Of a DNA stretch of 64,000 nt, positions 13,668 through 64,000 are shown in pieces. The DNA lies in assembly GCF_019649055.1 (NCBI RefSeq), contig NW_026570237.1:1178001-1242000 (forward strand), given 5' to 3'. The notes beneath the pieces are model-generated. The model worked only from the letters and a program-made list of their open reading frames with translations, was not told the DNA's origin and did not search any database. Position numbers and translations under genes: made by a program. This DNA comes from Paramacrobiotus metropolitanus. Taxonomy: Eukaryota > Tardigrada > Eutardigrada > Parachela > Macrobiotidae. The stretch's first letter is position 1. Every line of letters starts with the position of its first letter.

Positions 13668-13779
13668 AGTTCCAAGCGGTGTGGATCCACGGAGGGTTAT
13701 GTCACGGTCCCAGTAGTTCTTTGCGAACGTGTACGCGGTTCCATTGTGGACGGTTACAATGGCGTGTTCGAGAAGGATA

Positions 13780-27011: not shown

Positions 27012-30000
27012 TCAATCCTGCCATCCGGTGGCCTTTGGACCGAATTTGTATACCAGGCGACGTCCGAGAACGGGGAGGATAAATTCGGTTTTGTAGTAAT
27101 GCCTGCCAAGAATAAGAAAATTAATCACAACGCTGTGACAACTTTGACACATAAAAACTTATTTAAACCGGTTCAAAATCCAAGATAAAAATAAAAAGGA
27201 ATGCTTATACGAGTATATTTAAGCCAAAGTGGATGCAAAAATATTCTATGGCATTTGAAAATGTTTTTGAAAATCAAGTAAACACTAAATAAAAACTCAG
27301 AAAACTAAAAAAAGAAACTAAGAAGAAACCTTAGACAAATAACGCAAATAAGATTCACGCGAGAGAATAAAAAACAATAATATTATGTAGATTTGATAAT
27401 TTTTGCAGGATGCTTACTAACCTCATCGCGCGGCTCAGCTTCTCATAATTCATCCGCGGATTGCATTTCCTGGCGCCCCACTTGTCAGCCACCGCTTTCG
27501 ACTTGACGATGCGAAAAATTCCCGCCTTTTTGTCGTCCCATCGAATAATGGTGGGATTGCATCGAGGATCTTTCAACAAGTCCCGAATAAATTCCCATAA
27601 ATGGTTGCCTCCTGATTCTGCAAAAAAAGCATATTAAACCGAAAATCAGGTCCTAACGAGACCTTATCGGTACATACTGTTTCCTTTATGGAAGCCAGCC
27701 AGTTTATGATGCTGCCACTGCGCACTGTCGTCTTCCATTTCCTGATCCTCAAACAGACTATCGTCGAAACCATCTGAATCGCTATACTCACCTTCAAGGT
27801 CCGACATGCTCAAATCTGCAAAACGATTCGAAAAATGATAACATAATCATTATTGCTCGGGCTAAAATGGCAAATAATTCCAAAACAAAACCGAGATGAA
27901 TATACAAAACTGTGCAAACAGTACAAAATTCTTTTCGAATATTATACTTTCAGTACTGCAATACAACAACGCGCTTTTAAAATTAATTACCAACACATAC
28001 AAAAATTAAAATCACCAATGACAGTAACTGCAAAAAATGCCGCTGATAAATTGATTTGTGGTATTTACATAATCAGTTGGAAACTTCATTCTGCCTAATT
28101 ACGAACGACAGCACGGATTCTGGCTAAAAATCAGTTTTCGTTAAACGCAAAAACCGCGTGCGATCGCAATGAAAACAGTAACCTGGAACCATTTGCGTAA
28201 TTTGTGAAAAAAATGTCAGTATAAACAAAACACAATTTAATATTTTAACGATGAAAAATTCGTTGATTTCAGTTATGCAGTACCTGCTTCGTCTTCGACG
28301 TCCTCCGGGTATTCAGAGAAAAGGTTATTAAGCAGTTCGTGGGTTTTTCGGCCGGAAGACGTGCTACTGTTGCGATGGGAACCATTTCTCTCCGGAGATT
28401 TCGCCGGCTTCGTGCACTCATCACACGTACAGACCGACCCGGTCGCATGGGATAAAAAATGCATATCCAGACTGTCCTGCTTCGAGAGGCGTTTCTTTTT
28501 CGTAGGCGACGAGGAAGCGGCGGCTGCAGCTGTCAGAATCTGCAGTGAACTGGTGGCGATCTCTTCGCTTCCATGTTTCTTGAAATGCGCAGCCAACAGG
28601 CCATAATACGCGAATTTCTCTTCGCATACTCCACATCGGAATCCATCCCGACCCCCGTGCATAATCACGTGTATGTTTAACTTGCGCCTATCCTCGAAAG
28701 ACGTGTTGCAAAATAGGCATTTATTCGCCCGCTCTCTGGTCTGCAACAATATACGGAAAACACAATCACAACCGGCGCATTATAAGAAATTAATTAATTA
28801 TTATTAGCACTAATATATATTTTCATTAGAACATATTTATTTGATTATGGCTTTAATCGGCAGAACCATTAAATGACACACTACTCAACAGTAAAAAGTT
28901 AAACATTACAATTAATAATTAACAATTTACACAGTAATTTATTTTTTAATTTGAAGCAACTTATTTGAATTGAAATTTACGGACCTTCGCGGTGTTCTCA
29001 ACATCAGCGCCCGAGGTGAGATTGCCACCTCCCCCGCTACCAATGTTAGATGGGCTGGGCTGGATCACAGCAGAACTATTTAGACGATTTTCTTTGGAAG
29101 ATTCCTTCTGTGGAGACACCGAATTCTTCACTGCCGGTGCAGGATCCGGCCGGCCTCGCACCGGCTCCACCACCACTTCCTCCACATACCCGAAACCGTC
29201 TTCAATTCCCACCGGCACCGATGGACCGAATTCGGCGGAAATCACGGGTATGTATACATTCTGGGTGGTTATATCGTAGCCGTCCGCTTTTCTTTTGGCT
29301 GCGCTGGAGGGTTCCTCGGTATCTTCGTCAGTGGATGTCATTTTATCGGCTAAAGAATCGTGTGAAGTTAGTTGAAATTAGTGGTGCGTCGTAGTGAGAT
29401 GGCATTAATTTTATTGACACAAACTGAAATTCATTCTCTCATTCGTTCTGTACGCGTTTCGTTAACAAAATATAACTCGGACTTTGCTCGGAAAAATTTA
29501 CTGTGAATATTCTTTTAATAATTCGGCTCATGCTATTTTTAAATTTAAAAGTATCACACAATAGGTGCAACTAGTACTTAGTTTTGAGCGAATTACAATT
29601 TTGTTACGCATGCGATATTTTTGTCGTACTGGATTCATAATTCTTACGACTACAGTGCTTTGCTCACGGCTACAATGCTTTCCTTACAGCTTTGCTTTAA
29701 ACTGGATTTTAAAACCGAAACCATTTTAACTTAACTGAAATCTTTGCAATGTATATGCCCTAAATTATGATAAATTATGATATATGCCCTAAATTATGAA
29801 TTATGTGCAAAGTCCGCCAAAAGTATAACTTTATCATTCTTATCATTTTGTTACCAGCAAGGTAAACTGACACCGGTTTACCTTTCTTTCCGGGGTCAGA
29901 GCGGAGATTCAAAGCAGCAGATGCGGGCGCAGTCACCGCTTCGTTATACTGCTCGGAATACCACACTGTCAGTTCCTCCTTCGGTTGGATGGCCTTCTTC

Positions 30001-33000
30001 GTGACAAAGACAATCTCCGGTCCGCGCGCGAATACCAGCAGATTACTCTCCTCGGCACCCTTGGCAAATCGAACATGCTTCATCCAGTTGCATGTGTAAT
30101 CCGACTGCAGCTCATAATGCTTCCGCAGTGCATCTATCACCGAGAAATACCGCGCTTGTCCATCATCTCCGGTCGTTAGTGGAGCAATCAACGGCCCAAA
30201 CACGATATGCGCGGCGGGACAAGTTCCTTGGCAAAGACGGCCTTCCCTGAAAAACAGAACGCTAATTCAATACTAATGAAGAAACAGCGGTTTTTTCTGA
30301 ATTTTTACCTGTTGGAGAATCATGGCACAAGTCGATGGAGAGATTCTTAGGGGAGACTGCTGATTGCCAGCGGTGTGGTCGGCTCGTCTGGAAAACTCAC
30401 GGCATGCAGCCAACAGGGATTTCGCAGAGATATTTTGCACTTTTCACAATCTACGAACATATCGTGCGGAATTATTTTCGATTCATTCTGATAATCATGA
30501 AAGTCTGACATACAAAATGAAGCGCAATCAGTTGCAGATTTTTCGGAAGACACAGCAGATTTGCTGCACTGTTCTTCTACTGGCACCGGATGTGCCGCAA
30601 CGGATGAAGAACCACCTGTACATGTAAAACACGCTCCACGTGAAAATCCACACAGAAACCATCAAATCGCAACGCAAATTTAAATTAACTAAAATTAAAT
30701 TTTAATTAAACAAAACTATACTTGTAGCTTATTGGTACATATATAATGGTATATCGGTACATTTATAATATTAACATCTAAGATTAACAAAACTTATAAC
30801 AACACTATAATCTTTATATTTTAATCCTCCAATCATATTTTAAAAACTGTACTGATTACGAACAGTCGCTGTTGACGTACTTGTACTGCTCAGTTCGTTA
30901 TCAGCATTATTCTTCTCTTCCAACAGAGGGATCTCTTGTGTTGTAGCCGAGGCTTCAACCGTAGTTACATTATCATCAATCGGACGCAATCCTGGATCTT
31001 CTCGTGACACCCTTACATCCATATCGGTGAGCGGCGTCACTCGCTCCAGATTCTTCGCTACGAGATTCTGTCCATCTTCCAGTACGCCGTCCGTCCGCGC
31101 AGTGACATTTTGCGCACTTATAATCGGCGATTTGATAGATCTGATTTCTTCCGACTTACACATGGCAGTGCATCCTATTTCGGAATCAGATTTGACGGTG
31201 GGCGGCGGATACTGCAGTTGTATGCGCAGCGTCCACGACGGAACGGCCCGCGACTTAAGGACCCCGCTGGTCGGTCCGAGCGCGTAATCGTCGGGTGTGA
31301 AATGATTCTCGCACACCAGAGATCGATCTGTTACCACCTGCACGCGACCGTTCTGTTTGAGAAAGTTCATCCAGCCCCGCCGGGTGTTGGCGCCCGTCGG
31401 GAAAGGATAGAATTTCAGCCGCTCCGAGGGTTTGGTCTGGCCCGGTTTGCGACTGGCGTGGCATACCATACACTGCATAATTCCACTAACATCCTCGTGC
31501 CGAGTGTACACACCTGGAAAAATTTAGTTTTGCAAAATTAATAATTTGTTAAAACTAACCATTTAATTCTTTGTATACGAATACTGTTTTGCTGACTGAC
31601 AATACATGCCCAAATTTCTCCAAATACTAAAATTAACCCAACATGTATAAAACAATTTTAGCTGCTCAATTGTAACACCGCGTTAAATGTTTTCTATATC
31701 TTTAAAATATTTGAGAGCACTAAATTGTCCATAATCTGAAAAACTTTCGCTCAAATTAGTGTACTGTAATTAATTTTATTTGTACGGATACCAATTTTCG
31801 TGGTTCCGTTGTAAGACCGTATTAGTTTTCTGCCGACTATAAACACAACTACCACGAATCTGAGTGCACGAATTATTCTAATTACTGAATAAATAAAACA
31901 TATTAATGTTTTTACTTCACATGGATAGAAAAGTTTCCTTATACAACTGTAAGATCGTATTAATTTTTCGCCGACTGCAAATAAATTTCCCAACTTTTCA
32001 ACGCAAGATATTTCGCAAATCTGCAAATACATAATTTAATTTTAAATGTATACGAGAGTTTGTCATTCTCAATTGTGAAAGCGTACGAAGCACGAACCCG
32101 AATAGTGGAAGTCAATAATGCCGGCCAGATGACTGGGCATGGCGTCGTCTTTCAGCTGGCGCTGCGCCAGCAGCTCCCCGGTGTTAACATCATGATGCAG
32201 AAAATCCCCCGGCTCAAAATGCTGGCTACAGATGACGTCGGTCGACTTGGGCGTCCAGGTGGCCGCACAGCGCAGGCGCTGTGTCCACGTCTCGTAAAAA
32301 GGATGCGTGGACGGCCGGAAGGCATGCAGCGTCACCGCCTGCGCCATGGCATTCGCCGAGCTGATCGTACATCCCGGCACACAACACGCCTCCACAGCGG
32401 TATCCCCACCGGATGTTGCCGGTTCATCGGCGGGGTTGGCGGGCACCATGGACAGCGGCGACGCGGGCAGGGAGGCGGAAGTGCTGGGCTGCCGTGCGGC
32501 CGATAGTCCCGGCTTCTTCGGAGCCAGTTTGGGGAGTTTCGGTGCAAGACCCAGCTGACAGGGGGATGGTTCCTGTACTGGTTGGATCGGAGGAGCCGGA
32601 GGGGGAAGAGCGCACTGAATTGTAGGAACGGGAGTGGGATTATTGATGGCGTCGACGGACTGGGTCGGAAGGACGGGAGGGAGACTATTGGTGTCTTCGA
32701 TGGGTTTTTCTGGGATGCTTGGGTCCACGGCATCCACACGCTGCTTTTTCGCTATTTAATTCACCACATTAATTTCCCACTTGTTCGAATTTAATTTTTC
32801 AAATTTTATTTTATTTCTTATTTCTAAGATGATCGATCGGATACAGCAAGAGAATCATAAAATACTTTTCAAAAGGCTAATTTTAGCATTAAAGTACCAA
32901 TCACAGGTTCACCGATTATAATAAAAGTCAGACAGAACTATCATCTTCGTACAAACGCTATCCTGTATGTATGCGGTAGGAGCAGGAAGTGAATGCTGAT

Positions 33001-33488
33001 TTGACGATACATATTTGGATCGAGCCACTACACTACGCTGTAAGGAAGTTCTACATTATCGGTCATAATCAAAAAGACATACCAGGAGGTCCCGTTTCGC
33101 CATTATCCGATACCAAAACAGATGTCGATGCAGATGTTGATGGAGATGCTAATGGGTCTGATGTAGAAATTCTCGACTCAGCCACCATGACTTCAGCGTC
33201 AACCACATACGGACAGGCACCTTTTTTCAATCGCTTTCCTCGCTTCCCCGACTGATCCGCAGGCGTCGGCAGTACGGTGCCCGTACTGAAATGCCGACTG
33301 CACACTTTCGTGGACGGCGTAGGACTCCACTGACTGTCACGGCCTTTGGATAGGATCTCAATCCATCTGGAATATTTGGGATCCGTGACAGGAGGAACAT
33401 CGAAGTACCACACGTCGCTGACGCCGTGTGATGGCTTCGATAAGGGACATTGCAGAACGGCACACACGTTACTCTCGCTGACTGCCAT
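27012..33488 (-). CDS. Gene D: THAP x3 - zinc knuckle - PR/SET - C2H2 x2 - ETS chimeric transcription factor
   Basis: Ten exons, minus strand: 33488-33083, 32751-32098, 31513-30881, 30615-30309, 30246-29882, 29349-28985, 28740-28284, 27815-27678, 27617-27422, 27102-27012, about 1,200 aa. Exons 1-3 each hold a THAP finger (CAVLQC..CSRHF; CCVPGC..CSQHF; CMVC..CENHF). Exon 4 has the knuckle [15 protein letters not shown]. Exon 5 is a PR/SET domain ([29 protein letters not shown]). Exon 7 has two C2H2 fingers. Exon 8 is acidic. Exons 9-10 form an ETS domain ([22 protein letters not shown], then HYYKTEF and [12 protein letters not shown]-like). Two breaks: one extra base in GGGG 30350-30353, and a +1/-2 slip near 30207-30216. 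Every other junction agrees in phase. One transcription unit is likely but unproven. Confidence 0.65.
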
Positions 33489-35051
33489 CACTGCTTCATA
33501 CTAAAAGGTTAATAATTCCTTTTTAAAAGAGAACGCCGCAGATTACACAGTTTCCATCAGAAAAGCAACGAGGAAACCCAACACACCACCAGCGCACTGC
33601 GCTGATTTCCTGGTTCAGTATCTGCCCGTAGAAATGAGATCCTAGTGAATCTCTTCTTGCAAGACCTACTTCAGTAATACCTTGTTAAAAACTAGGTACA
33701 ATCTGCAAGATTTGTTGATAACGTTGCAAATGCTATCAAGCACTTCAAGATAATTTTCGTGAGCTGCGATCAAACAATTTAACGGACCGTAAAAAAATTT
33801 TATTAACACTGGTTGCAGGTTACACAAAAACAAGACCGTCGACAAACTCGGCTATCGACACGATGATCTGTATCGTACTAAGTCTTAAAGTACTGTAGGA
33901 TGCATTGCCCGCCACCCGTAGGCGGATGCGCGGCTTTAACCGTCCGCGTCGACGTCATGACAGACAACGAAGAAGCTGGCAAGTGGAAACTGGCAAGACA
34001 AAAATTACGGTTAGCAAAATTCTCTTTATTTTTATTTTTCAATATTGTATCCATAACGGAGATTGTGTCCATAAGGACCATAACGGCAAGGGACATAACC
34101 GGCGGCCGCATAACTGTTTCTCGTATCCGTTTAATGGGTCAAAATTAATTAGGCAGGTTGAAGATCGATTCAGAGAACAAAATTGCTAATTACATCACAT
34201 TCACATGGACAGCACTAAGCTAATGAATAGTACTTTATACCGTCTAGTGCGGGTACTTCACTTTTAATATGAATCACATATACATACTCTAGGTAAATAA
34301 TTATTAAGCATTATAGATTTTATGATGCGCGTGCGTTTTGCTGCGTTTGGTACAGATGTACAATATGTACAATACTTGCACTTGACCTGACCTGATTTGA
34401 CCAATAGCTTTTAATGACCTGACTTGACTGACTAATTTTGAATGACCTGACCAATAGCTTTTAACACAAATTTACACACGGGAAGATTCTATATTTGAAT
34501 GGTGAAATTAAATTATCTCGGCTCGCAGTTTTGTACACTGAATAGTGTTTACACTGTTACATTTAAATATATATATATATTCATTTTGAATTAATTACTG
34601 TAAAACAAGACTTCACCACCCAAAACAACGTACAAATAAAATAGTCCTGTACTTCTGCTTCTAATCGGTGGTACTTTCCTGATTTGGTATACTCCCCAGG
34701 AAGCCGGTTGCATGTCCTGTGGAAATCTCTAAGCGTTCTTGTTCGTGCATGTTTTAGCTTGCCCTATCCACCTGTTCGAACCAGTTCGGTTTTGTGAATA
34801 TCCGTGTTATGTGGCGCATGCGATCTTGCAAATTAAAAGTTCTGATAGACCTTAATTCTTTAAAGCCGTTTTCCATTGCTTCATTAAACTTCTTCTGATA
34901 TAGTACCTGATTTTTGGGCAAATTTACCCAAATTTAAAAGGGCAAGTATTTGTCACGGTTGTTCTTTCGGTTATATCGGCTCTAAATGTTAAAGCAATAA
35001 TATTATACAGAAATAGCCACCAGTTCACAAATTACAAGTGCAAGAGCCAAC
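33489..35051. promoter_or_regulatory. Divergent region between gene D and oxygenase copy 1
   Basis: About 1.56 kb with no supported ORF. It holds the 5' flanks of both genes. A cluster of TGACCT motifs lies at 34383-34448. The short frames at 33878-34189 have no recognisable domain. Confidence 0.35.
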
Positions 35052-41149: not shown

Positions 41150-41155
41150 CAATCT

Positions 41156-41196
41156 GCATGCACTACTTATATCGGTCAGAGATAAGTAGTGCATGC
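41156..41196. repeat. Perfect 15-bp-stem hairpin with 11-nt loop
   Basis: GCATGCACTACTTAT (41156-41170) pairs exactly with ATAAGTAGTGCATGC (41182-41196). It starts only 6 bp after the first hairpin. Confidence 0.85.
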
Positions 41197-41242
41197 TTGT
41201 TTTTCGATGCTTGATGAGGTTGTTTTTCGATGCTTGATGAGC
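41197..41242. repeat. Tandem duplication of a 23-bp unit
   Basis: The unit starting TTGTTTTTCGATGCTTGATG occurs twice back to back (41197-41219 and 41220-41242), with one difference at the last base. Confidence 0.85.
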
Positions 41243-41429
41243 AATTCGATGTTGTGACTTGTGGGTAGATGTGCAGCACCGCCGAAGAGACAAAAGCGCA
41301 CTAGATCTAGAGTTAAATTTTGTTATCGATACTGTTAAAAGGGCATTCAGTTGCATCGGTTCCGGTACATTGTAATGACCATAGTGACTCTCTGACTGCT
41401 GACTGAATTGAGCAACTGCAAAAGCCAAC

Positions 41430-47449: not shown

Positions 47450-50400
47450 TTACGAGGACGCGGAACTGTCACTGGATGCATACCTCTCCGCAATATACAG
47501 GGACTCTTCGGAGCTGCTGGAACTGTCACTATCAGATTCGTCCACATCTGCAACATCAACCCGTGACTGACAAAACTCTTAGCATAGCGACCAACTGCAA
47601 AACGCTGCCGCAAAAAGCGTACTGCAAGGCGGATGCCAAGCTGACAGTCAATTTGAAGGTAATCCATTTTACGCCATATAATATATGCATAAACCATGTA
47701 AAATATAAGGGAATATGAAAACCGAAATTAAAAGATGAAAAGTATGTTGCCGGACTCTATTTATACGCTTGTAACCGCCATTTAATTTTACACATACGGC
47801 GTGAAACAAACAGAGTTCCATACTATTTCGATGGATCTTAACTGTGCCAGTACCTTTCTTGTCAACCGGCAGCTCGCTTCTTTCCGGCGAAATCGTAATG
47901 GACGGAGCCTCCACAACCTCCGGCGACGCTTCCGGAGAATCCCCTTCATCTTCCTCCTTGTCCGAATACAGTGCTCCGTCTTTGGTACAGTGTCCCGCCG
48001 TATGCAGCTTCAATAATTCATTAGTCAGAAAGATGGCCCCGCAGAAGCCACACAGAAATTCCTCGTGGATGGCGCTGTACTCATTGTCGGAAGGCTCCTC
48101 CACCCCGTCACTGTCCGATGACGAGGCCGCGCGATGCATCCGTTTGATATGATCGTAGAGCTGGCGGCGGTCAAACCATCCATCACAGTGCGGGCACTGC
48201 TTCGTAGCTGTCCCGTGTCCCATGTCGACGTGTCGCAGTAACTTCTTCAGATCTGTGAATGACTTGCTGCACTGCGGACATTGACGTGTGCTCTCTTCAG
48301 TGTCAGCAGTACCGGCGTCTCCATGTTGCAGTTTATGCAGCCGATACAATTCCTCCAATTCAAATGTCATACCGCATTTCTGGCAAGTCAGGCTATGGAC
48401 GAGCACTGGTTTCCGGTGTTCCTAAACATGAACGTAACCTTACAAACCATCACCGAGATGTACGATATGCAGATACGTAGAAATACAGCTGAATGCAAGT
48501 TTCGAATGAAAAACAAATGTAAGTAGATTTTGTGCAGTTTTCCAAGCTTTTACCACCTACATGTATGTAACAGGCGTTTTAGCCATATGTTCAACGTACT
48601 TAACAAAGTCGAAATAATTTAGAAAATACAAATGCAATTTAAAAAAAAGTTCACAACTGTCTTGCAACGATATTTCCCATTGGAAACACCGGTCTGGTCT
48701 CACACCTTTCCGTCAGTTTTCGAAGATTCCGACTGGATATCAACTCCTCGATGTTCACGACGGATATGACTGCGCAGTTTGCTATACCACTTGCTACACA
48801 CCGGACATTGCTTGGTGGGCCGCCCATGGTCACTCACGTGGTCCAACAGCTCCGTTACCTCCTCAAACGTATCATGACATTCCGGACAGGTCGTCGTCTC
48901 GCACGGCGGCGTCTCGTCGCCGGTGTGCAGTTTGTGTTTCAGTTTGTGCAGTTCGCAGCCGGCATCCGTCCCAAAGCGTAGACCACATTCCTGACAGGTC
49001 TGATTGTTCATCGGCAGGCTAGTCTTGTGATTCTGTAAAACACCGCACTCTGTCCATTAAATGCAAATAGAAAAAAGTTCATCCGAAAACTTCACAGGGA
49101 AAGTTACTGGAAAGTTACGGGATACTTTTTTCCGAAATATTTTCTTCACAGAAACAAATGTTTTAAATTATATTTCTTGCCCTTTCGGCCTTTCCTCTTG
49201 CATAATAACGTTGTTTTCATGAAAATTAAATATTTTCTTTATGGAAGAATAAACTGGTATCAAATTTCCGATTGAAATTTTATTTTTTTTTCTCTTCTGC
49301 CATATACGTTTATCTCGTGACTTTAATTTCGATGATGTGAGTGAACACACCAACCTTCAGGTGCGCTTGTAGACTAATCCGCAATGCAAACCGTTTCCCA
49401 CACTGCGGGCAGGAAAATTTCTTCGTTCCCGGCTCAGCGGAATCACTGCCACCGTCTGCGTAGCGATTCCGTGTAACTTCCGGATGGTTTGCGTAGATAT
49501 GTTGGCGCAGCGCACCGAACCATTTCCCGCACACCGGACACAGCTTCGTGGGCGTCCCGTGCGTGTCGACATGCTGCGCCAGTTGGCGACACTCGTCGAA
49601 GGTGCGCGGACAGGCGGGGCACGCTCGCTGCTGACTAGCGGCGGAATCGTCGTGCGTCTGATGGTTCATTTGGTGCAGCCGGCACAGCTCTTGCGTGGCG
49701 AACCGCAAACCGCACTCGGTACATGTCAGTTTCGTGTACCCTGTCGTCGCGGTATATCCCGGCTGATGACTCTACGATCAGCCATAACAAATCGACACGT
49801 TGCCGGTTTTTATAGGGAATATTGCCGGTTCGACATGATTGAAAATTCCTCACCTTCATGTGATTCCGCAAACCGTTCTGTGAGTCATACTGTTCATGGC
49901 ACTCGGGGCAACGATACGCGTAATCCGAAAATTTTTGTTGTGTAGACGACATTTTGGGTTTTTGTTTAGCTGACGAAGATTTCCGAGACTTCGCACGCTG
50001 GCACAATTTGTCGGTCTGGATGGGATGTTCCGGATGAAAACTACGAAGGTGTGCCTCCAACCAAGCGAACCAAATTCCACACACGGGACACTTCTGTCTA
50101 CGGGAGTGTCCCTTGACGTGTTTTATCAGATCATGTACGTCTATAAACGATTCACCACACAGGGAACACTTTCTGCTCCCTTCTAAACCGTTCAAGGACG
50201 CTTTGGCCCCGTCGGGAATTTCCGGGAATTCACATGCGGCATCTAAACCGACTCGTCCATCACTCGCGCCAATAAAACTGCCATTTTCGGCAAGGTTCTG
50301 AAATATAGAAAATATTTACGTAACTCAGTCCAGTATCAAAAGAAACTTTCATTTTGATGTGAGCCAGTTAACCACAAAACAGAACTCACCGTTTCCGGTT

Positions 50401-53400
50401 CCCACAAGTTCTCCTGAAATTCAAAAGCCTTTAACGGCATCGTGGAAGTATTTGTAGACCGGCTCGTCAAGGCTGTTTCTTTGTCCAAAGGAACATCATC
50501 CGACATTTCCTCATCGGAAACCTGTTCTTCCTGACAATCATCGCTTACCATTCCACTCTCTTCCTCTGCGCCTGCCACTGGTAAAAAACAACGTTGGATT
50601 GCTTTGGATTGCCATTGGTCAAAAACAACCATCCAAGAATTTTATCACTTACCCGGTGTTTCTCCATCAAAGCAAAGATCGACAGTGGCAGCAGGAGTAA
50701 CGAGATCCAGATACTGTCTGGAATACCACACTCGTAGTTCTTCGTGCGGAGAGATAACTCTGTTTGTGACGAAGACGATCTCGCCTCCGCGCGCGAACAC
50801 CAGCAAATTGCTCGCTTCCTCGCTGTCCGCCAGTCGCACGTGCTTCATCCAGTTGCAGGCGTAATCCGAATCCAGCTGATACTGCTTACGCTTGACGTCC
50901 TCACCCAATTCGGAAACATCCATGTAACGGGGTTTATCTTCGTCGCTCGACACCGTCGGAGCGACTAACGGACCGAACACCGTGTGCCGCTCCAGCGTTT
51001 CTTTGACAAAAACTGTCTTTCCTAAACACGACATGTTTCTAATAATTATGCAAGCACAAAGAGATTGATCTTTATATATCACTAATTATGTATTTGTAAA
51101 TCTGAAAATAATTGCTTACCGGTCGGCGATTCATCACAGACGTCCATATACAAAACTCTGGGCAAGCTACCGACTGCCAATGGAATGACCGGTTCGTCCG
51201 GGATACTGTCCGAATGTATCCAGCACGGCGTTTGCATCACCTTGGAACATGATTCGCAGTCTGCCGGTTTCAAAAACAATTAAGGAACTCGTGAATACAG
51301 TTAACGAGAAACAAAAATCGCCAATTTCCACGTACATAAGAAGGAGTTACTGGGTGAAGTCATCGAGGGCGGAGCCGTAACTGCGTTTCCGGTGCGCGTC
51401 CGAGGCTGAACCACAGCTGGTGGTATCGCCCGTGGGGCAAACGCTACAACAACAAATTTTAAACAACTTTTTACAGCCAGCTAGTTCAATAGCACAAGCA
51501 AACTTACAAGCAGCCACAGATTCTTCATCGCCTGGTAGACCGTTGTGGGACACAACCTGTTGATTCGACGTGACAGATGAGGTACGGGTGGAATACACCG
51601 GTGCTGAGCTACTTTCCAAAGAGACACTCTCTTTCATTGGCAAATCACTGTCTCCATTCACTGCTTCCGTTTCTTCTTCACTTTCTATATCACTGGATTC
51701 AAAGGGAAGCCCTGCGTCTGGCGCCAAAGAATCACCAATGCTATCACCGACCGGTTGTACAGAAAGACCAGTGTCTTCGTTATTGTCGGTTGGGTAAATG
51801 TCGAAGGATTTCAATGACGGGACAGCCGTGTCCTTTAGCATGATTATGGATTCGCTTCCGGCGCGTGGTACAACCACCATCAAGTCATCTGGTGTAAAGT
51901 GATTTTCGCACACCAGCGATCCATCAGAGAGGACGAAATCCCGATTTAGCTTCCGGCAGGCCGCGATCCATGCGTTGCACAGGGCAGAGTCGGTCGGGAA
52001 ATTGAAAAATACCAATCTCTCGGACGGTTTACAAGGCGCAGTCGACCGGTACCAGCCACAAACAGAACAAACCTGTACTGTTCCATCCGACACACCGGAA
52101 TTTCCTGGCGTGCGAAACTTTTCAACGCACTCCATCCGAGAAGGAATGACACCCGGCTTTAGCCTTAAAGTCACAACACCTCCACGGCAAATAAAATTCT
52201 GTGCTGTAAAATGCTGACTGCACACCTTATGGTGACGCTCACGCGGCTGCCAGGAAACGGCACACCGCATGCTGTTAATCCATTGGTTCCGCCGCTTTCT
52301 GTCTGTGGGGAACGCACAATAGCTCAACCCTTCCGCAGAGGATGATGCACCGGGAATAAGCCGACATCCCGGTACACAACACAAATAACCGTCATCCTGT
52401 GGCATTGTTAATAACTCCCTGATCCCCACTGCAACTTCCGCATCACGGACACTGCTGAATAAGGGCAAGGCTTTTCGCGACGGAATGGCTCCGTTGTGAA
52501 GCAACAGTGTCCACAGTTTCTTCGGTCTATTACGATCCCGAGTGAAGAATAAATCCTCCGGCCGGAAATGGTTCTCACAGACCAGCGCCCCATCGCTCAC
52601 GACAAACTCCGGCTTCCATTGGCGGCACGCGGCGACCCACTGGCTGCGCAAAGTGACCTCGGCGGGAAAAGGGAAAAAGGTCAATCGTTCAGATCGTGTC
52701 GTGCATCTGTAGTCCAACAGCAGTGGTCGCCACCAACCGCACACACAGCATATCTTCTTCGACTTCAGATCAACCAGTGCCTCCGGATTAAGTGATGTGC
52801 GGAAGTCCTGCATGCACTCTAATCGGGACGGTACAGCGGTGGCTTTGGGATGCTTGCGTCCGTTGTAGTCGAAATCCTCAGGATGGAAATGCTGGCTGCA
52901 AATTCTATCGTGGAGCCAGGGTTGCCACGACACAGCGCAGCGGATACGGTCCAGCCACTGACTGTACCGCAGCGCGCTGGTGGTTATTACGCAGTGATAT
53001 GTCACGGTCTTCCCGACAGCGGATGTTTTCCAAACTCGGCATCCCGGTACACAACACGTGGTGTGACTGGTACGCAGAGGGTCCTTGGGAATCACCGCTA
53101 ACCGCGGGGTAACGGTACAGCTTGGCGGAGCAATTTGCGGTGCCGGCAAAACTATTTCCGGCCCGGCGCTAGAGGCTGCTGCAGGTTCGGCTCGGCGCTG
53201 GCCTTTCGATCTAGCTGATGCCTTAGTTTTACCCCGCAAGAGTGGCGTTGCCCCGAGAGCTGTTGGCGGCACACAGGAAACTGCTATTATTTCTGATCCG
53301 GCGCTGAATGGCACTGCAGGTGTGACGGGGCGCTCGCTTTCCGTGGAAACTGTAAGATTATCCTTCGGCTGCGAAGTCGGGATCGCAACAGCCGTTTGTG

Positions 53401-55829
53401 GCGACGGTAGCGGTGGACCGGCGACCTGGTGTTCCTCTGGCACGTGATCAGTCCACAGAGGGAACATTAGCGACGGAACAGCATCGCTCTTCAGCTCTCC
53501 ACCGCGTCGGTTCGCTACAAAGTCATCCGCTGCAAAATGATTCTGACACATCAGCGACTGTCTGGTTACTTCTCTGCGGCAGTTCTTTTCCACGAGAAAT
53601 TTCATCCATAACGTGTCCAGGTGGCTGTTGGTGGGGTAAGGATAGAACACCAGCGTTTCGGAGGGTTTCGTCCACCCCGGCTTCCGTTTGGCACCGCATG
53701 CGAGGCAGGTCTGCATTCCCGCGACATTTGTTTCTGCCGCGCCCTCCCGCATCCCCGAGTAATGAAAGGCACTGATGCAGGTCAATCGACTGGGCACAGC
53801 AAGCGGGTTCAACGTTCGGTTGAACGGAGCGGATGACACACTGCTAAGCGGAACGTCGGAGGCGTCAAAATGCTGATTGCAGATGAACAAGGGCGGCTGC
53901 GGCTCCCATGATGTTGTACAACGCAGCCGAGTGACCCAGATGTCGTACTGGAGAGGCTGTGTGGGCGACACGAAGGGGAACAGCGTGGCCAAATTGCGCG
54001 AGGCATTCCAGGAGGTGATGGGACAACCGGGGACACAGCAGATCTGCATGGGATCGGCCACTTCGGTTACGCTCTCCAGTTGATTCGGGACATCAACGGC
54101 CGTCACCGTCGGGGCAGGAGGAAACACCCTTACAGCAGGAGTATTTTTTCTCGGACCCCGTCGAATAAAGTGTAGCTGTCTACCAGAATTATGTTCATTC
54201 TGATGTTCAACTGGTGTTACCGAAGGAATAACGGTACTCGTCGCAGAAGAAATGCTCACAGCTGGAGTAAAATTATTCGCGCGCGATAGAACGGAGTACA
54301 AGTGACCATCAGAATTAAGCTGATTCTGGGAATTAAACAGCGCTACCGAAGGGGTGATCGTCACAAAAGGAACATCTGGTGGACGCGGCATGATAGAACG
54401 CAGCTGACTCCCAGAGACCGATTGATTAACAGATTTCATTGGCGATGCCCCAGAAGAAATCCCCACAGCATCAGCCATACTTGACGGACGCGGTAGAACA
54501 GGGCACAGTTGGGGAGCGATGGCGCTGTCAGTCTGGTCTGGATGGAAGAGGACATCCGGCGATGGGAAGGGGAATGCTGGTGCAGGAGGGACAACCGCCG
54601 CGACTGGAAGCTCCGGAATTTTCTCAGCGCTCGGTTTGGTGTTCTGGCTGTTCGGTTTGGCTAATTTTATGATTTTGGCGACAGGAGCTGGAGTCGTAGG
54701 AGTGCGTCGAGGAGGCAGGGATTTCCGCTTTAAAGAAGAGGCGAGCCTATCTGCATCATCCGCACTGCGCTTCCTCGCATCTGCAGAGTTAGGGGTATGT
54801 AAGTACTTGTTCAGAAATCACAAGAAAAACACAAAAACAAAAGCAATATGCGGCAACTGTTAAAACAAAATAATAAATCACGAACTGAAACATGCCCATT
54901 CTGGTCGGAATATAACCATTCCGTAAATTAAACATAACATTAAACTTACAATACAGTGAAAATTCAGCAAAAGTTACTAAAATTAGTGAAGTAAGAAGCC
55001 CATTTTGAAGACATGAAACCAAGGCGTTGCCGTTTGTTAAAAGCATACTGAATAAAGTTATCAATCTAAAAATTAAAAATAATAGTACCCAGTGGCACCT
55101 AGTAAGAGTGGTAATTAATTATTGAACTTTTTTTACCATTATTTAAAATTATGGAAAGTATGGTTTAAAATTAATGCCGTCGTCGTAAAAGACGACGAAT
55201 CTGTCTTGTAGTTGGTGTGAGCCGACAAAACCAACTGCTGGGCTCATGTCATATTTCAAATATTTCAACGGCTAATTACTGTTCATTCCTAAAACGGCGA
55301 TTATTAATTTGTTACAGCCGCAATACTCACTGGAAGATCCGATGATCGAACCGCCTGGACGAGAGCGAGACTCCCGCGGGGGATCCACACGCGCTGGCAG
55401 ACCTTTGAAGAAACACGGCGACGTCAGAACAGATGCCTCGCGTACACTGCACTGCGTGAAATTTCACTACTCACTGTTTGAGCCGATTTCCGGGCTGTCT
55501 GGTCGCGGAACAGACTCCACGGGCGGTTGCAGGCTGCGCGGGATGCCTTCGAAGAGACTCGGCAGCGCATCGTGTTTGAGACGCTTCTCCGTCTTCTCGC
55601 AGTCCTCGGCTGACGGCACGGAGAGGATATCCGTAGAGCAAAAGTGTCGACTGCAGATCTTGCTGGCTGCGGATGGAGTCCAGTCTTTTGCACGCCGAGT
55701 GCGCTCAATCCAGACGGGATAGCGCGGGTCGCTCGGATGCGGGAAAGCGAAGAAACACACGCTGCGCATCGAACGGGATGGCTCTGACAAGGGACACTGC
55801 AACACGCAGCACACGTCGCCGTTTGCCAT
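47450..55829 (-). CDS. Gene E: THAP x7 - PRDM9-like knuckle - PR/SET - C2H2 array (about 2,090 aa)
   Basis: Eleven exons, minus strand: 55829-55475, 54780-51508, 51443-51351, 51260-51120, 51021-50653, 50577-50390, 50297-49854, 49771-49355, 49032-48706, 48421-47854, 47547-47450. All splice phases agree. Exon 1 has one THAP finger (CCVLQC..CSRHF). Exon 2 (3.3 kb) has six more in alternating types: CCVPGC-x-CxQHF, then CxxC-x-CxNHF, three pairs. Exon 4 carries CESCSKVMQTPCWIH, the same C-x2-C-x7-C-x2-H spacing as the pre-SET knuckle of PRDM9. Exon 5 is the PR/SET domain ([34 protein letters not shown]). Exons 7-10 encode about 14 C2H2 fingers in three-finger cassettes. Exon 11 is an acidic Ser-rich tail. 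A nuclear DNA- and chromatin-binding factor is likely. Gene F is its tandem duplicate, gene D a smaller relative. Confidence 0.78.
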
Positions 55830-57186
55830 TCTGCAATGGATCTGCGAAATGCAGGCTATTTATAATATAAAGTCAAACAGCGAAAGAGACGGAAGTTTCG
55901 TCATGGAAAAGAGATCCAGTTGAGCTACCAAAACACGATCACGAGTGACGAGTACGGCGTCTTTCGCACGACTTTCCACTACGAACAACTTTAGTCGATG
56001 CGTCAAGAAAAAATGGCTCTTTCAAAAGCCTGCACGAAGATTAATGACTTAATTCTCAACCGAACAAATGAAGCACCATCCAAGTATGGCAGACAAATAA
56101 AAATTGCTGGAGCCATGAGCATAAATGGCAAACGGATCACAAAACTTGAATCAAAAATCAAAATTCAAAAGCAACGACTGCAACGTGCACCAGTTTGCAG
56201 ATTCATTTACGACCATAAGTGACGTACGCGCGGAAGACGTTGCTGCCACCCGTCGGGTGGTCATGGCGACCCACGAACATTTTCTGCGAAGTGGAACGAA
56301 TCTTGTTTTTCACAGTTCCGTTCGAAGTTTCGATTTTTCTACAATTTGCGTTTGAGAATATGTGACCGTTGGTTTTCAACCAAAAGAAATTATTACAACG
56401 ATAACTTTGAAGAAACGAGCTATGTTTATTTCACAGATCCCTGGTGTTTTACATCTAAATTTTGGTTAAGTACAGTAATAGAGATATACGTAGATTGAAA
56501 AAGTTTTTGCCGTTTCAGATACCAGGGTCAGTCCGCATTTTGTTGTACGCATGTCAGTACGCTTTCAGTTGCAGCAGCGCGTACTCCACACTGCCGCTTC
56601 CGAAAGTGCGACCTCCATGCGTCAGCCAGTCAGGTACAGTTCTGATCATTAACAGCTGTTTTGTAATGCGTGCCACTGCACTGCATTATTACTCTTCGCT
56701 TGTGCTTCGATTTCGCTAATAACCTGTTGCACCCTAATCTCTATCGTGGCTATTCTCTTTTTCGCTTTAAAAATGTACAGAGTAATGAGAGTGTATATTT
56801 CGTACTATCAACTGACTGACCACGGGTTGAAATTATACAAGTTTGATGTGGATTATTCCTCGGTCCGATGTAATCCACGCATCAATGATGCTAATAAGTT
56901 ATCACATCCCGAAGCAGTAAACAAAAGATTCTTAACAATCAACAAATCTTGTGGAAAAAAATTCTTTGTCACAAGATGCAGCAGCCATCGACATGAAATG
57001 AGCAAAACCGGCACCAGATTATAGTATTTCAATATTATACGTATTAATCCAAAATTTGTACTAGCTCATCTTTTTGCGTCATCAAACACCCGATTTGTGT
57101 CGTGACGGAGCCTCCAGTATTTCCGGCGAAGATTCCCGGTAGACTGTTACATTATTCTCCATTGCGTAGCGGAGATTCGTACAAAT
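55830..57186. promoter_or_regulatory. Upstream of gene E / downstream of gene F
   Basis: About 1.36 kb. Small frames here (55998-56222, 56462-56719, 56746-57024) lack domains and splice partners. The first part should be the promoter of gene E. At 57080-57186 the minus strand continues gene F's frame past its stop codon. Confidence 0.35.
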
Positions 57187-60100
57187 TTACATGCCGCTGT
57201 TATGCTCTTTCGCATGCACCACCAACAATGCTTTCGCCAAAAAGATGGCACCACAGACGCCGCACACACATTTCGCGCTGACATTGCTGTTCTGGCCCGA
57301 CTGATGCCGCCCATCCACACTGTTGGACAGTGCGGCCGCATGACTGCGTCCTATGTGGCCCGGCAAGTGGCCAAACCAGCGATTGCAGTGCGAACATTTA
57401 TCCGTCGTCCTCCCATGTTGGTCCACGTGAACCACCAGCTCCCTAACGTTTTTGAACGATTTGTTACAATGGGGACATCGCCGTTCACGGGGATGCTGAA
57501 TTGCGATGTTCCCGTGTTGTAAAACATGCAACTGGCGCAGCGCTTCCGCTGTGAACCGCATTCCGCATTCGTCGCAAGTGAAGCTCTTAATGAACGTCAG
57601 ATTCAAGTGCTTCTGCAGTAATACAGAAGATTATTAAAAACAGTGTACTACTTCAGTTTTTAAATTACCAGTCAGGGTCAATATGGGCAAACGCTAACAT
57701 TCACTTCACACTTGTGTTATGCCAATAATTACATACTTTCTGATGATCGGACAGGTTAGACTGCTGCTCAAACTCTTTTCCGCAATCCTGACAACTGTGT
57801 CGACATGCAGTAGTGGTATTAGATGATCCCCGCAACCCCATGAAGCGAACTGCAGACCGCAATGGCTGCAGGTGACACCGTCAACGAATGCCTGCCGCAC
57901 TGAGCGTGCGGCTTCCACCACTGACTTCTATAAAAATTAAATAAATCTGCCCAATAATATCACAAGTATAATCGCATATGCTGCCAAACCCAATTTATAC
58001 GCCTGTAGCCGCGATTTAATTCGCTGCATACGGCATAAGCAAAGGTCCGGACAAAGTTCGATACCATTTGGTTGGAAGCAACTATACCAGTTACCTTTCT
58101 TGTCAACCGGCAGCTCGCTTCTGTCCGGCGAAATTGTAATGGGTGGAGCCTCTACAACCTCCGGCGACGCTTCCAGAGAATCCCCTTCATCTTCCTCCTT
58201 GTCCGAAGGCAGAGCGCCGTCATTGGTACAGTGTCCCGCTATATGCAGCTTCAATAATTCATTAGTCAGAAAGATGGCCCCGCAGAAGCCACACAGAAAT
58301 TCCTCGTGGATGGCGCTGTTCTCATTGTCGGAAGGCTCCTCCACCCCGTCACAGTCCTTTCCCTCAGTTTTCCAGGATTCCGACTGGATATCCACTCCTC
58401 GATGTTCACGCCTGATATGACGGCGCAGGTGCCCGGTGTCTAGCCACTGGCTACACACAGGGCATTGCTTGGTGGGCCGTCCATGGTGTCCCAAGTGGTC
58501 CAGCAGCTCCGCCACATCCTTAAACGTGTGCTGGCATTCCGGACAGGTCGTCGTCTCGCACGGCGGCTTTTCGTCGCCGGTGTGCAGTTGGTGTTTCAGC
58601 TTGTGTAGTTCGCACCCGGCATCCGTCCCAAACCGTAGACCACATTCCTGACAGGTCTGATTGTACGTCGTCCCGTTAGTCGTATGGCTCTGTAAAACAC
58701 CGCATACACCGTCCACTAGTTCAATAAAAATGAAAAACTGTCATCCGAAAAATGCACATGAAAAGTTAATGAAAATGTCCAAAAAAACTTTTATACGAAA
58801 TTTTCTCTTTACAGAAACAAATGACTTAAATTTTTGTATTTCTTGCCCTTTACTCGTGATCTTTTTTTGCTTGAAAACGCTGTTTTTATGAAAATTAAGT
58901 ACTTTCTTTCGGAAGAAAAAACTGATACCAAATTTCCGGTTGAAATCTTATTTTCATTTTCTTCTGCTATATACATTTATCTCGTGACTTTTATTTGGAT
59001 GGTGTGACCGAACGCACAAACCTTGAGATGCGCCTGTAAGCTAATCCGCAGTGCAAATCGTTTCCCACACTGCCGGCAGGAAAATTTCTTCGTCCCCGGC
59101 TCAGCAGAACCACTGCCACCGTCTGCGTAGCGATTCCGTGTAACTTCCGGATGGTTTGCGTAGATATGTTGGCGCAGCGCACCGAACCATTTCCCGCACA
59201 CCGGACACAGCTTCGTGGGCGTCCCGTGCGTGTCGACATGCTGCGCCAGTTGGCGACACTCGTCGAAGGTGCGCGGACAGGCGGGGCACGCTCGCTGCTG
59301 ACTAGCGGCGGAATCGTCGCGCGTCTGATGATTCATCTGGTGCAGCCGGCACAGCTCTTGCGTGGCGAACCGTAAACCGCACTCGGTACATGTCAGTTTC
59401 GTGTACCCTGTCGTCCTCGTAAATTCCGGCCGATGACTCTACGACAAGCCATAACAAATCGACATGTTGCCGGTTCGACATCACTGAAAATTCCTCACCT
59501 GCATGTGTGTTTGTAAACCGTTCTGTGACTCATACTGTTCATGGCCCTCCGGGCAACGATACGCATAATCCGAAAATTTTTGTTTAGTAGACGACATTTT
59601 GGGTTTTTGTTTGGTTGATGATGATTTCTGAGACTTCGCACGTTGGCACAGTTTACCGGTCTGGATAGGATGTTCCGGATGAAAACTACGAATATGTGCC
59701 TCCAACCATGCGAACCATTTTCCACAGACGGGACACTTCTCACTACGGGAGTGTCCCTTCACGTGTTTTATCAGATCCTGCACGTCTATAAACGATTTAC
59801 CACACAGGGAACACCTTCTGCGCCCTTCTAAACCGTTCAAAGACGCTTTGGCCCCGTCGGGAATTTCCGGGAATTCACATGCGGCATCTAAACCGACTCG
59901 TCCATCACTCTCGCCAATAAAACAGCCATTTTCGCCGAGGCTCTGGAATACAGAAAATATTCACGTAACTCTCATTTCCATGTGAGCCAATTAACCGCAG
60001 AACAAGGAACTCACCGTTTCCGGTTCCCATAAGCTATCCTGCAGTTCAAATGCCTTCAACGGCATCGTGGAATGATTTGTAGACCGCTTCATCAAAGCTG

Positions 60101-63100
60101 TTTCTTTGTCCACAGGACCATCATCCGACATTTCCTCGTCGGAAGCCTGCTCTTCCTGACAATCATCGCTTACCATTCCACTCTCTTCCTCTGCGCCTGC
60201 CAATGGTCAGAAACCACACTGGATGCTTCATTAACCTTCCAGGAAATTTTTCACTTACCAAGTGTTTCTCCATCAAAGCAAAGATCGGCAGTGGTTGCAG
60301 GAGTAACGAGATCCAAATACTGTCTGGAGTACCACACTCGCAGTTCTTCGTGCGAGGAGATGGTTCTGCTTGTGACGAAGACGATCTCGCATCCGCGCGC
60401 GAACACCAGCAAATTGCTCGCTTCCTCGCTGTCCGCCAGTCGCACGTGCTTCATCCAGTTGCAGGCGTAATCCGAATCCAGCTGGTACTGCTTGCGCTTG
60501 GCATCCTCACCCAAATCGGAAACATCCATGTAACGGGGTTTATCTTCGTCGCTCCACACCGTTGGAGCGATTAACGGGCCAAACACTGTCTGCCGCTCCA
60601 TCGTTTCTTTGACAAATACAGTCTTTCCTAAACACAGCATGTTTCTAACACAGCATTTTAACACAACACACCATTTTTATGCAATCACAAAGAGATTGAT
60701 CTTCATATAATTTATTATTAATTATGTATTTGTAAATCTGAAAATAATTGCTTACCGGTCGGCGATTCATCACAGACGTCCATATATAAAACTCTGGGCA
60801 AGCTAGCGACTGCCAATGGAATGACCGGTTCGTCCAGGATACTGTCCGAATGTATCCAACAAGGCGTTTGCATCACCTTGGAACATGATTCGCAGTCTAC
60901 GTGTTTCAAGAAACAAAGACAATAAAGTTAATGCGAAACGCAATCGGAGTATGCATCCAAAAGTCAGATTAATTTTACATACACAAGAAGGAATTACTGG
61001 ATGCAGTTAGCGTGGGCGGGCCGTTGACTGCGTTTCCGGGGCGCCTGTGAGGCTGAACCACAACCGCTGGTATCGCCGATGGGACAAACGCTACAACAAC
61101 ACATTTAAAACAATTTCTAAAGCCATCTAATTCATTAGCGCAAGGAGCTTACAAGCAGCCGCAGAATCCTCATCGCCTGGAAGACCGTTGTGGGACACAA
61201 CCTGTTGATTCGACGGGACAGACGGAGTACGGGAGGAAGACGCCGGTGTTGAGCAACCTTCCAGAGAGACACTATCTTTCATCTGCAACTCACTGCTTCC
61301 ATTCACAGCTGTCGTTTCTTCGTCGCTTTCCATATCACTGGATTCAAACGGAAGCCCTGCGTCTGGTGCCAAAGAATCATCAATGCTATGATCACCAACT
61401 GGGTGTACACGGAGACCAGTGCGTGCATTATTACCGGTAGGGTAAATGTCGAAGGATTTCACTGACGGGACGGCCGTGCCCTTTAGCATGATCGTGGATT
61501 CGCTTCCGGCGCGTGGTGTGACCACCATCAAGTCATCTGGTGTAAAGTGATTTTCGCACACCGACGATCCAGCAGAGAGGACAAAATCCCGATTCAGCTT
61601 CCGGCACGCCACGATCCATGCGTTGCATAGGGCGCCGTCGGTCGGGAATTCGAAAAAGTTCAATCTTTCCGACCGTTTACAAGGGTCTGTTGAGCGCCAC
61701 CAGCGACATACCGAGCAACTGCGGACTGCGTCATTCAACAGCTGGGCATTTGCTGGCGTGCGGAACTTTTCCACGCATTCCATTCGCGAGGGAACAGCAT
61801 CGGGCTTTATCCGAACGCCTGGGACGGCACTGGAAAAAAAATCCTGGGCCGTGAAATGTTGACTGCACACCAAATCGTGGCCATCACGGGGCTGCCAAGA
61901 AGCGGCGCAACGCATGCTGCTGATCCATTTGTTGCGCAGCTTTCCTTTACAGGGGAAGAAAAAATACGCCGACTTTCCGGCCGAGAATGGGTCGGAAACA
62001 GTCTGGCATCCCGGCACACAGCACACATGACGGTAACTCTGGAGCGCTGATGTTTCCTCTGGGACATTACTACATAAGGGCAAGGCTTTTTGTGAAGGAA
62101 TCGCGCCGCTTTTAAGAATAACCGTCCAGGGCTTACCGTCCAGGACGAAACTTGTCGTGAGTGCTGGACAAATCATCCGGCCGGAAATGGTTCTCACACA
62201 AAAGCGTAGCATCTGTAAGGACAAAATCCGTTTTCCATTGGCAACAGATGGCTGTCCACAGGCTGCGCAGAGTAACATCGGTGGGAAAAGGGAAAAAAGT
62301 CAATCGCTCAGATCGTGTCGTGTTGGCCACCAAACACGGTCGCCACCAGCCGCAAACACAGCATATGTTCGCATTATTTAGGCCAACGGATTCTGCCGGA
62401 TTCCAGGGTGTGCGAAACTTCTGCATGCAATCTAACCGAGATGGCACAGCGGTGGCTTTTAGACGCCTGTATGGCGGGCCGTCGAAATCTTCGAGATTGA
62501 AGTGCTGGCTGCAAACTCTATCGCTTAGCAAGGGCTCCCATGAGACCGCACAGCGGATACGGTTCAGCCACTCATTGCGCCGCGGACCGATGGTGGTTGG
62601 TATAGAGTGACACCCCACAGCCTTCCAGTTTTGTCCAGGGGCACTTTTCCAATCCCGGCATCCTGGCACAGAACAGGGGATGTAACCTGCGCACAGAGGA
62701 TTACTGGGAATCACAGCTAACCGTGGAGTATCGCCACAGCTTGGTGGAATGTATGGCGCCAAGGAACCAATATTAGCTGGTGGAATATTTCTCGGTTGCG
62801 ATTTTCGGATCGCAATTCCTTGCGGCGTAGAGGAAACTGTTTGCGGTGCAGCGACAGAGACTGCTGATGCAGTTCGGTCCTGGCCTCTTGATCGAGCTGG
62901 TGTCTCAGTCTCGCGCTGCAAAATTGGACTCGTCGTAGCAACGGTTCGCGGAGCACAGGAAACTACTATTTCTGATCCGGCGTTGAATGGTACTTCTGGT
63001 ATGGCTCGCCGCTCGCTTTCAATTGGAACCGAAAGACTGTTCTCCGGATGCGAAGATGGGATCAGAACAGCAGCCGTCTGAAGCGACGGTAGCGGTGGAC

Positions 63101-64000
63101 AGGCGGCCTGTTGTCCGTCGGGCACGTAATCTGTCCGTAGAGCGAACATCAGCGACGGAACAGCATCGCACTTCAGCTCCCCACCACGCCGGTTCGCTAC
63201 AAAGTCATCCGCTGCAAAATGATTCTGACAGATCAGCGACTGTCTGGTTACTTCTGAGAAGCAGTTCTTCCCCGCGAGAAATGTCTTCCATAACGCGTCC
63301 AGGTGGCTGTCGGTCGGAAAAGGATAGAACACCAAAGTCTCCGAAGGTTTCGTCCACCCCGGCTTCCGTTTGGCACCGCACACGAGGCAGGTCTGCATCC
63401 CCGCGACATTTAATTCTGCCGCTCCCTCCCGCAATCCCGAGTAATGAAAGGAACTAATGCAGGTCAGTCGACTGGGCACAGCAAGAGGGTTCAACGTTCG
63501 GTTGAACGGAGCGGATGACACACCGCTGAGCGGAACGTCGGAGGCGTCAAAATGCTGACTGCAGATGAACAAGGGCGGCTGCGGTTCCCATGATGTTGTA
63601 CAACGCAGTCGAGTCACCCAGACGTCGTACTGGAGAGACCGTGTAGGCGACACGAAGGGGAACAGCGTGGCTGAATTCCGTGCGGCATTCCACGATGTGA
63701 TCGGACAACCGGGAACGCAGCAGATCTTCATGGGATCAGCCACTTCGGTTACGCTCTCCAGTTGAATCGGGACATCAACGGGCGTTACCGTCGGGGCAGA
63801 AGGAAACGTCCTGACAGCAGGAGTAACAATTTCCGGAGGTCGTTGAATGGAGCGCAACTGGCTATCTGAATTGTGCAGATCCTGATGATCAACTGGTGTT
63901 ACGGCTGGAGTTAACGAGACGACAGGAGTACTCGTCGCAGGAATGCCCACAACTGGAGTAAAATGATTCGCACGCGATAGAACGGAGTACAAGTGACCAT
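57187..64000 (-). CDS. Gene F: tandem paralog of gene E (THAP array - knuckle - PR/SET - C2H2), open at right edge
   Basis: Exons, minus strand: >64000-61153 (THAP array), 61090-60998, 60896-60756, 60627-60259, 60196-60015, 59942-59499, 59438-59022, 58689-58095, 57920-57737, 57612-57187. Six THAP fingers match those of gene E in order. The knuckle CESCSKVMQTPCWIH and the PR domain ([29 protein letters not shown]) are nearly identical. Two frame breaks: one extra base near 62133-62138 inside the fourth THAP, and one base missing in exon 57920-57737, next to the C4 runs at 57828 and 57836. Exon 58689-58095 is a fusion of two gene E exons. Two finger exons at the 3' end have no counterpart at that place in gene E. 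The first THAP exon is outside the window. Confidence 0.72.

Follow-up and report, generated by a model that had tools for sequence, protein, structure and literature searches.

The genome of the tardigrade Paramacrobiotus metropolitanus raises the question of whether there exists a class of PRDM proteins that combines an array of THAP domains with a PR domain and C2H2 zinc fingers. The stretch in question, referred to here as the window, covers 64,000 nucleotides (C17:1178001-1242000) of contig C17, which has 1,648,765 bases in an assembly of 169.8 Mb. A preliminary description of this DNA had proposed that three of its genes (D, E, and F) join several THAP domains, a zinc knuckle, a PR/SET domain, and C2H2 fingers in one protein of PRDM9 type. 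Our analysis partly supports this proposal, whose architecture is right and whose PRDM9 affinity is wrong: a tandem family joining a THAP array, a zinc knuckle, a PR domain, and a C2H2 array in one protein was confirmed, and this THAP-PRDM combination is a real PRDM variant, undescribed in the open-licence literature searched. As in other PRDM proteins, PR/SET and C2H2 domains are found in one protein, and the PR domain has the PR fold. In that literature (cited by PMC number and from the parts of each paper that were covered), we found no described protein that combines THAP and PR, which agrees with the claim that no such PRDM protein was known, and no paper on PRDM genes in tardigrades; the covered part of PMC12941274 mentions neither THAP nor PRDM, and that of PMC11191345 has zero occurrences of THAP, PRDM, zinc finger, PR domain, or tandem.

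Architecture of gene E and of the NCBI models

The question of whether these modules can be read as one protein is answered most directly by gene E (55829-47454, minus strand; Table 1). Its 12 exons have GT donors and AG acceptors, agree in phase, and join into a stop-free frame of 2,118 amino acids whose 3′ end lacks a closing stop codon. Domains were called with Pfam profiles and with our own hidden Markov models (HMMs) for THAP and C2H2. The joined protein contains seven THAP domains, a C-x2-C-x7-C-x2-H knuckle, a PR domain, and 14 C2H2 fingers (counted by pattern). The Pfam THAP profile matches the frame of exon 1 (E-value 2.2e-12) and six stretches in the frame of exon 3 (1.5e-58), our own THAP HMM agrees with its seven matches, and the C2CH zinc ligands of these domains are present. 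Likewise, the PR frame matches PRDM2_PR (8e-22) and SET (1.2e-5), and all four finger-exon frames have Pfam C2H2 matches. A looser, overlapping THAP pattern, which gives 10 domains in gene E, was not used. The acceptor 51038 for the PR exon was rejected because it breaks the frame, whereas 51021 fits and reproduces the junction sequence seen in the NCBI proteins. The N terminus is indeed a THAP array instead of KRAB and SSXRD, neither of which matched in eight frames of gene E (E-value up to 1) or in NCBI proteins P0001 to P0004 (up to 0.5). Three of the 14 fingers are short, with the non-standard C2H2 spacing C-x2-C-x9-H-x4-H (50034-50090, 49484-49540, and 48751-48807).

Among the protein matches listed, there is no NCBI model for gene E itself, and the one-protein architecture is independently backed by three NCBI models of other copies that cross the THAP-to-PR joint. 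P0001 (LOC129585459, gene F, 1,021 amino acids) has Pfam THAP (2 stretches), PR (PRDM2_PR, 5.7e-19), and C2H2 matches, as well as the knuckle. P0002 (LOC129585452 isoform X2, gene G, PR at C17:1250701), open over 1,764 amino acids from its start codon, and P0003 (LOC129585551, gene K, labelled partial, 1,735 amino acids, PR at C17:1307357) have THAP (5 and 4 stretches, respectively), PR, and C2H2 matches. Mapped to the genome, all three share the layout of gene E, in which a THAP exon is followed by one that is 35 to 39 codons long and then by the knuckle exon and the PR exon; in P0004, the knuckle and PR exons are laid out alike and there is no THAP. The proposed order therefore holds for gene E through its open 12-exon join and for gene F through P0001, but not for gene D, which is a degraded copy (below). 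The P0001 model begins after a frame break near 62140 in the THAP array of gene F, the likely first THAP exon of which lies outside the window, at C17:1243977-1244237.

The knuckle was detected near 33 of 34 PR rows, and its C, C, C, and H columns are invariant across 14 aligned family rows, x7 becoming x8 or x9 in some distant members. Its spacing had been taken as a mark of PRDM9. The spacing is the same, but PRDM11 shares it and PRDM4 has a knuckle as well (PMC3811882), so that the knuckle does not single out PRDM9.

Expansion of the family and linkage of THAP to PR

In the 262 kb of contiguous DNA examined, the order THAP(n)-knuckle-PR-C2H2(n) is tandemly repeated, and one stretch of it (1.075-1.115 Mb) has knuckle-PR-C2H2 without a THAP match. 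Genome-wide, there are 85 PR matches above the Pfam cut-off, 50 on C17, 10 on C73, 9 on C12, 5 on C104, and 11 on nine other contigs; these are matches rather than proven genes, as two on C2 share one locus (leaving ∼84 loci) and some copies are broken. This expansion is in itself unusual, since published counts range from 2 to 19 PRDM genes per animal (PMC10451705, citing an earlier survey), with 2 in nematodes and 3 in arthropods (PMC2082429).

A same-strand THAP lies within 2 kb upstream of 20 of the 85 PR matches, across four contigs, and within that distance none lies downstream or on the opposite strand. Widening the distance to 4 kb gives 20 upstream and 3 downstream on the same strand, and 3 upstream and 1 downstream on the other. 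In 2,000 random shifts of 20 to 200 kb, the same-strand upstream count within 2 kb averaged 3.0 and reached at most 11, and thus the order of THAP upstream of PR occurs more than chance would give. The linkage is concentrated in C17:1.20-1.41 Mb, where 14 of 17 PR matches have such an upstream THAP; six of the remaining 68 do, on C12, C26, and C73. Genome-wide THAP counts are lower bounds, since the scoring covered 150 of the 180 candidates. The NCBI protein P0007 has its N-terminal sequence in a THAP-bearing open frame at C73:232947.

At least 13 family proteins were found among 5.8 billion proteins, and the 12 with a species name comprise 11 from Paramacrobiotus and 1 from Hypsibius; the search used a shared-word filter and capped the number of candidates, and absence from other phyla cannot be read from these 13 matches. 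Further PR clusters occur at C17:832-1000 kb and C104:589-630 kb, with matches mostly ending around position 90 of the 123-position PR profile, perhaps another subfamily.

PR domain, fingers, and selection

Is the PR domain of PRDM9 type? That it has a PR/SET fold was borne out by the Pfam matches above and by searches with predicted folds. Compared with PRDM1, 4, 9, and 11, however, PRDM10 is its nearest relative by sequence and tree, and by predicted fold PRDM10 and PRDM4 are tied as nearest, so the proposed PRDM9 affinity was not upheld. In the fold search with the P0004 model, PRDM PR domains are the top rows, and with the P0001 model they rank from 5 on, among zinc-finger chains; the VIA-align rows comprise only chains already ranked by Foldseek. 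In the tree, from which PRDM15 and invertebrate PRDM10 were left out, the 34 family members form one clade beside PRDM10. One-to-one orthology was rejected on this ground, and the family would be at best co-orthologous with PRDM10. A PR fragment at C5:1458859-1462092 groups with PRDM9 in the same tree (97/84); it has a long branch, less than half of its columns filled, and one internal TAG, and its identity is unsure.

The preliminary description had left open whether the PR domain is catalytic, and the sequence leans to no. In PRDM9, the tyrosines Y276, Y341, and Y357 matter for catalysis (PMC5519329), and Asn320 takes part in binding of the cofactor S-adenosylmethionine (PMC9861158). Y276, N320, and Y341 are kept in 0 of the 34 members: position 276 holds L in 27 and M in 7, position 320 holds R in 31, Q in 2, and H in 1, and position 341 holds F in 31 and L in 3. 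With these three residues replaced throughout, PRDM9-type methylation is predicted to be absent from these proteins. In the same alignment, positions 276, 320, 341, and 357 are V, R, Y, and Y in PRDM10 and L, R, F, and Y in PRDM4. For PRDM10, the covered part of a review gives no histone mark (PMC4009873).

We then considered how the domains evolve. Between genes E and F, the ratio of nonsynonymous to synonymous divergence (dN/dS) is 0.27 in the THAP region, 0.18 in knuckle-PR, and 0.20 in the fingers; for the E-G pair, the THAP value is 0.24 and the knuckle-PR value 0.10. Overall, it lies between 0.10 and 0.59 in every region and pair for which it could be computed, saturation of dS leaving no ratio for the fingers of E-G, F-G, and E-K and the linkers of E-K. 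Given these low values in THAP, knuckle-PR, and fingers, the domains are under purifying selection where measurable. The E-G pair combines a constant PR platform with diverging fingers, as knuckle-PR is 90% identical versus 48% for the fingers. In the same pair (C17:1228-1251 kb), the synonymous distance is ∼0.48 in knuckle-PR and saturated in the fingers, a contrast that may point to gene conversion among the PR exons or to shuffled finger exons.

In PRDM9, finger contact positions change faster than other finger positions. Here, none of eight pairwise comparisons showed a significant excess of change at the DNA-contact positions (p 0.35 to 1), and positive selection at these residues was rejected; two of the eight are E with F in both directions, a pair in which 10 of 40 contact positions and 16 of 60 other positions differ. 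Moreover, the fingers of gene E are spread across four exons, and tandem-repeat calling gave nothing in the finger exons of either E or F, so there is no coding minisatellite.

Possible roles, alternatives, and known systems

What might such proteins do? We consider it likely that this tandem, PRDM10-like family with an N-terminal THAP array encodes DNA-binding regulators in which both arrays would contact DNA and the knuckle-PR unit is a predicted non-catalytic docking platform. Of this picture, the sequence itself shows the one-protein architecture, the expansion, the purifying selection on the domains, and the replacement of PRDM9 active-site residues. Beyond that, the THAP and C2H2 arrays would each contact DNA, the knuckle-PR unit would dock or recruit partner proteins without catalysis, and the targets of the copies would drift apart as the fingers change and the PR platform is retained. 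Functions in meiosis or in transposon control are possible. HIM-17 of Caenorhabditis elegans, a protein with six THAP domains, acts on germline promoters derived from transposons as their regulator (PMC9757741) and may serve, by analogy, to illustrate what a THAP array is capable of.

Several observations weigh against this reading. For 65 of the 85 PR matches, the 2 kb upstream contain no Pfam THAP (the THAP count being a lower bound), and 10 of the 13 family proteins have no Pfam THAP match. Genes F and D are broken, and outside the window two further THAP exons (C17:1309025-1309660 and 1277618-1278199) contain internal stops, so that part of the array may be decaying. In the PR domain, Y357 is retained in 31 of 34 members, which leaves some room for weak or different methylation, and PRDM4 and PRDM1 also carry some of the replaced residues. 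As for the predicted folds, the P0001 model places a PRDM4 chain ahead of PRDM10 by Foldseek E-value, and mean pLDDT (predicted local distance difference test) is low, 51.1 and 54.5, the models being confident only in the core of the PR domain and in portions of the finger array.

More tentatively, and with considerable doubt, one may see here this tardigrade lineage's own large class of THAP-PRDM chromatin regulators, with transposon-type THAP arrays grafted onto a PRDM10-like body; it would be a genome-surveillance system reading transposons and other targets through two arrays, a counterpart of the KRAB zinc-finger proteins. Copies of KRAB and ZAD zinc-finger proteins recognise transposons and silence them, and a tandem genome-defence family of this kind is also conceivable, if rather unlikely. 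It would fit the tandem arrays with their ∼84 PR loci, the stronger divergence of fingers than of PR between E and G, the THAP-bearing transposase-like genes of this genome (below), and the HIM-17 precedent, yet there is no excess change at the DNA-contact residues and no repressor motif was identified.

That the array consists mostly of decaying pseudogenes without a present role is very improbable. It would account for the frame break in F, the internal stops in THAP exons, the partial label of P0003, a fragmentary PR copy at C17:1259797, and gene D. Gene D retains three THAPs above the Pfam cut-off, a knuckle, a PR match in which the first 23 positions of the profile are missing, and two C2H2 stretches too weak to reach the Pfam cut-offs, and our own finger HMM found no match in it; since the knuckle frame runs into a stop immediately after SSLP and the PR frame is not continuous from the expected splice site, it is a degraded, frame-broken copy. 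Genes E and G, however, are open from their start codons over 2,118 and 1,764 amino acids, and the dN/dS values speak against general decay.

Scarcely plausible is the idea that the THAP and PR exons are separate adjoining genes or that the THAP exons are inserted transposons. The family proteins that have no Pfam THAP match would agree with it, among them P0005 (C73:415757), which begins past a THAP frame 1.4 kb upstream that its model omits. Against it, the joints are open and phase-matched in gene E, P0001, P0002, and P0003 span the joint, and the order is conserved at loci on four contigs. THAP is a DNA-binding family common to P-element transposases (PMC9757741), and the genome holds 18 transposase-like PF21787 matches, 14 of them with a THAP within 3 kb; a source of THAP is therefore at hand. 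None of the 18, however, lies within 20 kb of any PR match, and so the THAP exons next to PR are no transposase-like elements of this kind, and a reading of them as adjoining transposons was rejected. Least credible of all is a function as methyltransferases of the PRDM9 kind, marking meiotic hotspots and having THAP where PRDM9 has KRAB and SSXRD: the knuckle spacing, the knuckle-PR-fingers order, and Y357 agree, but PRDM9 membership was rejected on the active-site residues, the tree, the closer relation of the PR domain to PRDM10 and PRDM4, the finger organisation and contact positions, and the N terminus.

Also within the window are a retrotransposon-like stretch at 8931-16268 (minus) with reverse transcriptase and integrase zinc-binding matches, a lone single-THAP frame at 24432-24980 (plus, 3.1e-16) on the strand opposite to the array, and, at 36134-46567, four related frames of the 2OG-Fe(II) oxygenase superfamily (PF13640), a clustered family within the array.

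Table 1. Positions of genes D, E, and F and of the oxygenase frames in the window
Feature	Position	Strand	Remarks
Gene E exon 1	55475..55829	-	Start codon and THAP 1 (55811-55551); gene G model P0002 opens with the same exon type
Gene E exon 2	55331..55402	-	24 codons; GT-AG, phase 1/1; P0002 has a matching small exon
Gene E exon 3	51508..54780	-	Six THAPs: 54040-53783, 53707-53465, 53056-52820, 52750-52475, 52381-52133, 52069-51812
Gene E exon 4	51336..51443	-	Linker, 108 nt
Gene E exon 5	51120..51260	-	Zinc knuckle C-x2-C-x7-C-x2-H and beginning of PR unit
Gene E exon 6	50653..51021	-	PR/SET domain; best PDB match PRDM10
Gene E exon 7	50390..50577	-	Acidic linker
Gene E exon 8	49854..50297	-	C2H2 fingers
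Gene E exon 9	49355..49771	-	C2H2 fingers
Gene E exon 10	48706..49032	-	C2H2 fingers
Gene E exon 11	47854..48421	-	C2H2 fingers
Gene E exon 12	47454..47547	-	Acidic tail
Gene F THAP array	61460..63722	-	Six matches; frame break near 62140; exon 1 likely past the window end
Gene F knuckle exon	60751..60894	-	Codon mapping of P0001, ends approximate
Gene F PR exon	60257..60622	-	Codon mapping of P0001, ends approximate
Gene F linker and C2H2 exons	57884..60194	-	NCBI model; C2H2-like matches of own HMM extend to 57202
Gene D	28276..33500	-	THAP 33464-33201, 32386-32126, 31472-31233; knuckle 30448-30350; PR 30230-29937; two weak C2H2 ∼28.7-28.5 kb
2OG-Fe(II) oxygenase frame	36137-37132		PF13640
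2OG-Fe(II) oxygenase frame	38780-39826	-	PF13640
2OG-Fe(II) oxygenase frame	42704-43702		PF13640
2OG-Fe(II) oxygenase frame	45473-46567		PF13640

Among known systems, the closest is PRDM10 (human, PDB 3ihx), with the nearest PR domain by sequence and tree and the best or tied-best by predicted fold, and SLP..LY, FGP, CNWM, VR, and ELKVWY-type motifs are common to both. To our knowledge, PRDM10 has no THAP and is not a tandem family in human, PRDM4 and PRDM11 have no THAP, and HIM-17 has no PR domain. PRDM9 shares the C-x2-C-x7-C-x2-H knuckle followed by PR and fingers, whereas the tardigrade family differs from it in having THAP instead of KRAB/SSXRD, in its replaced Y276, N320, and Y341, in fingers that form no minisatellite, and in its more distant PR domain. 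PRDM4, the second-best PR match, resembles the family in the knuckle ahead of its PR domain, and PRDM11 in a knuckle of the same spacing, the latter protein being without fingers (PMC4009873). HIM-17, by its published description, resembles the family in its multi-THAP array. PRDM9 has KRAB as its described N-terminal module (PMC2082429), and with THAP, a module from a DNA-binding family, a PRDM protein would have gained an N-terminal module a second time and independently.

The remaining comparison is with the Hypsibius exemplaris ‘putative zinc finger protein 786’ (P0012), which matches the family profile with an E-value of 2.8e-39 and likewise has Pfam PR and C2H2 matches and a knuckle-like C/C/C/H stretch, but no Pfam THAP match. 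This difference suggests that THAP modules were added to a pre-existing knuckle-PR-finger unit, the alternative being their loss in Hypsibius. The THAP-PRDM family lends itself to testing how regulators with two DNA-binding arrays originate and multiply.

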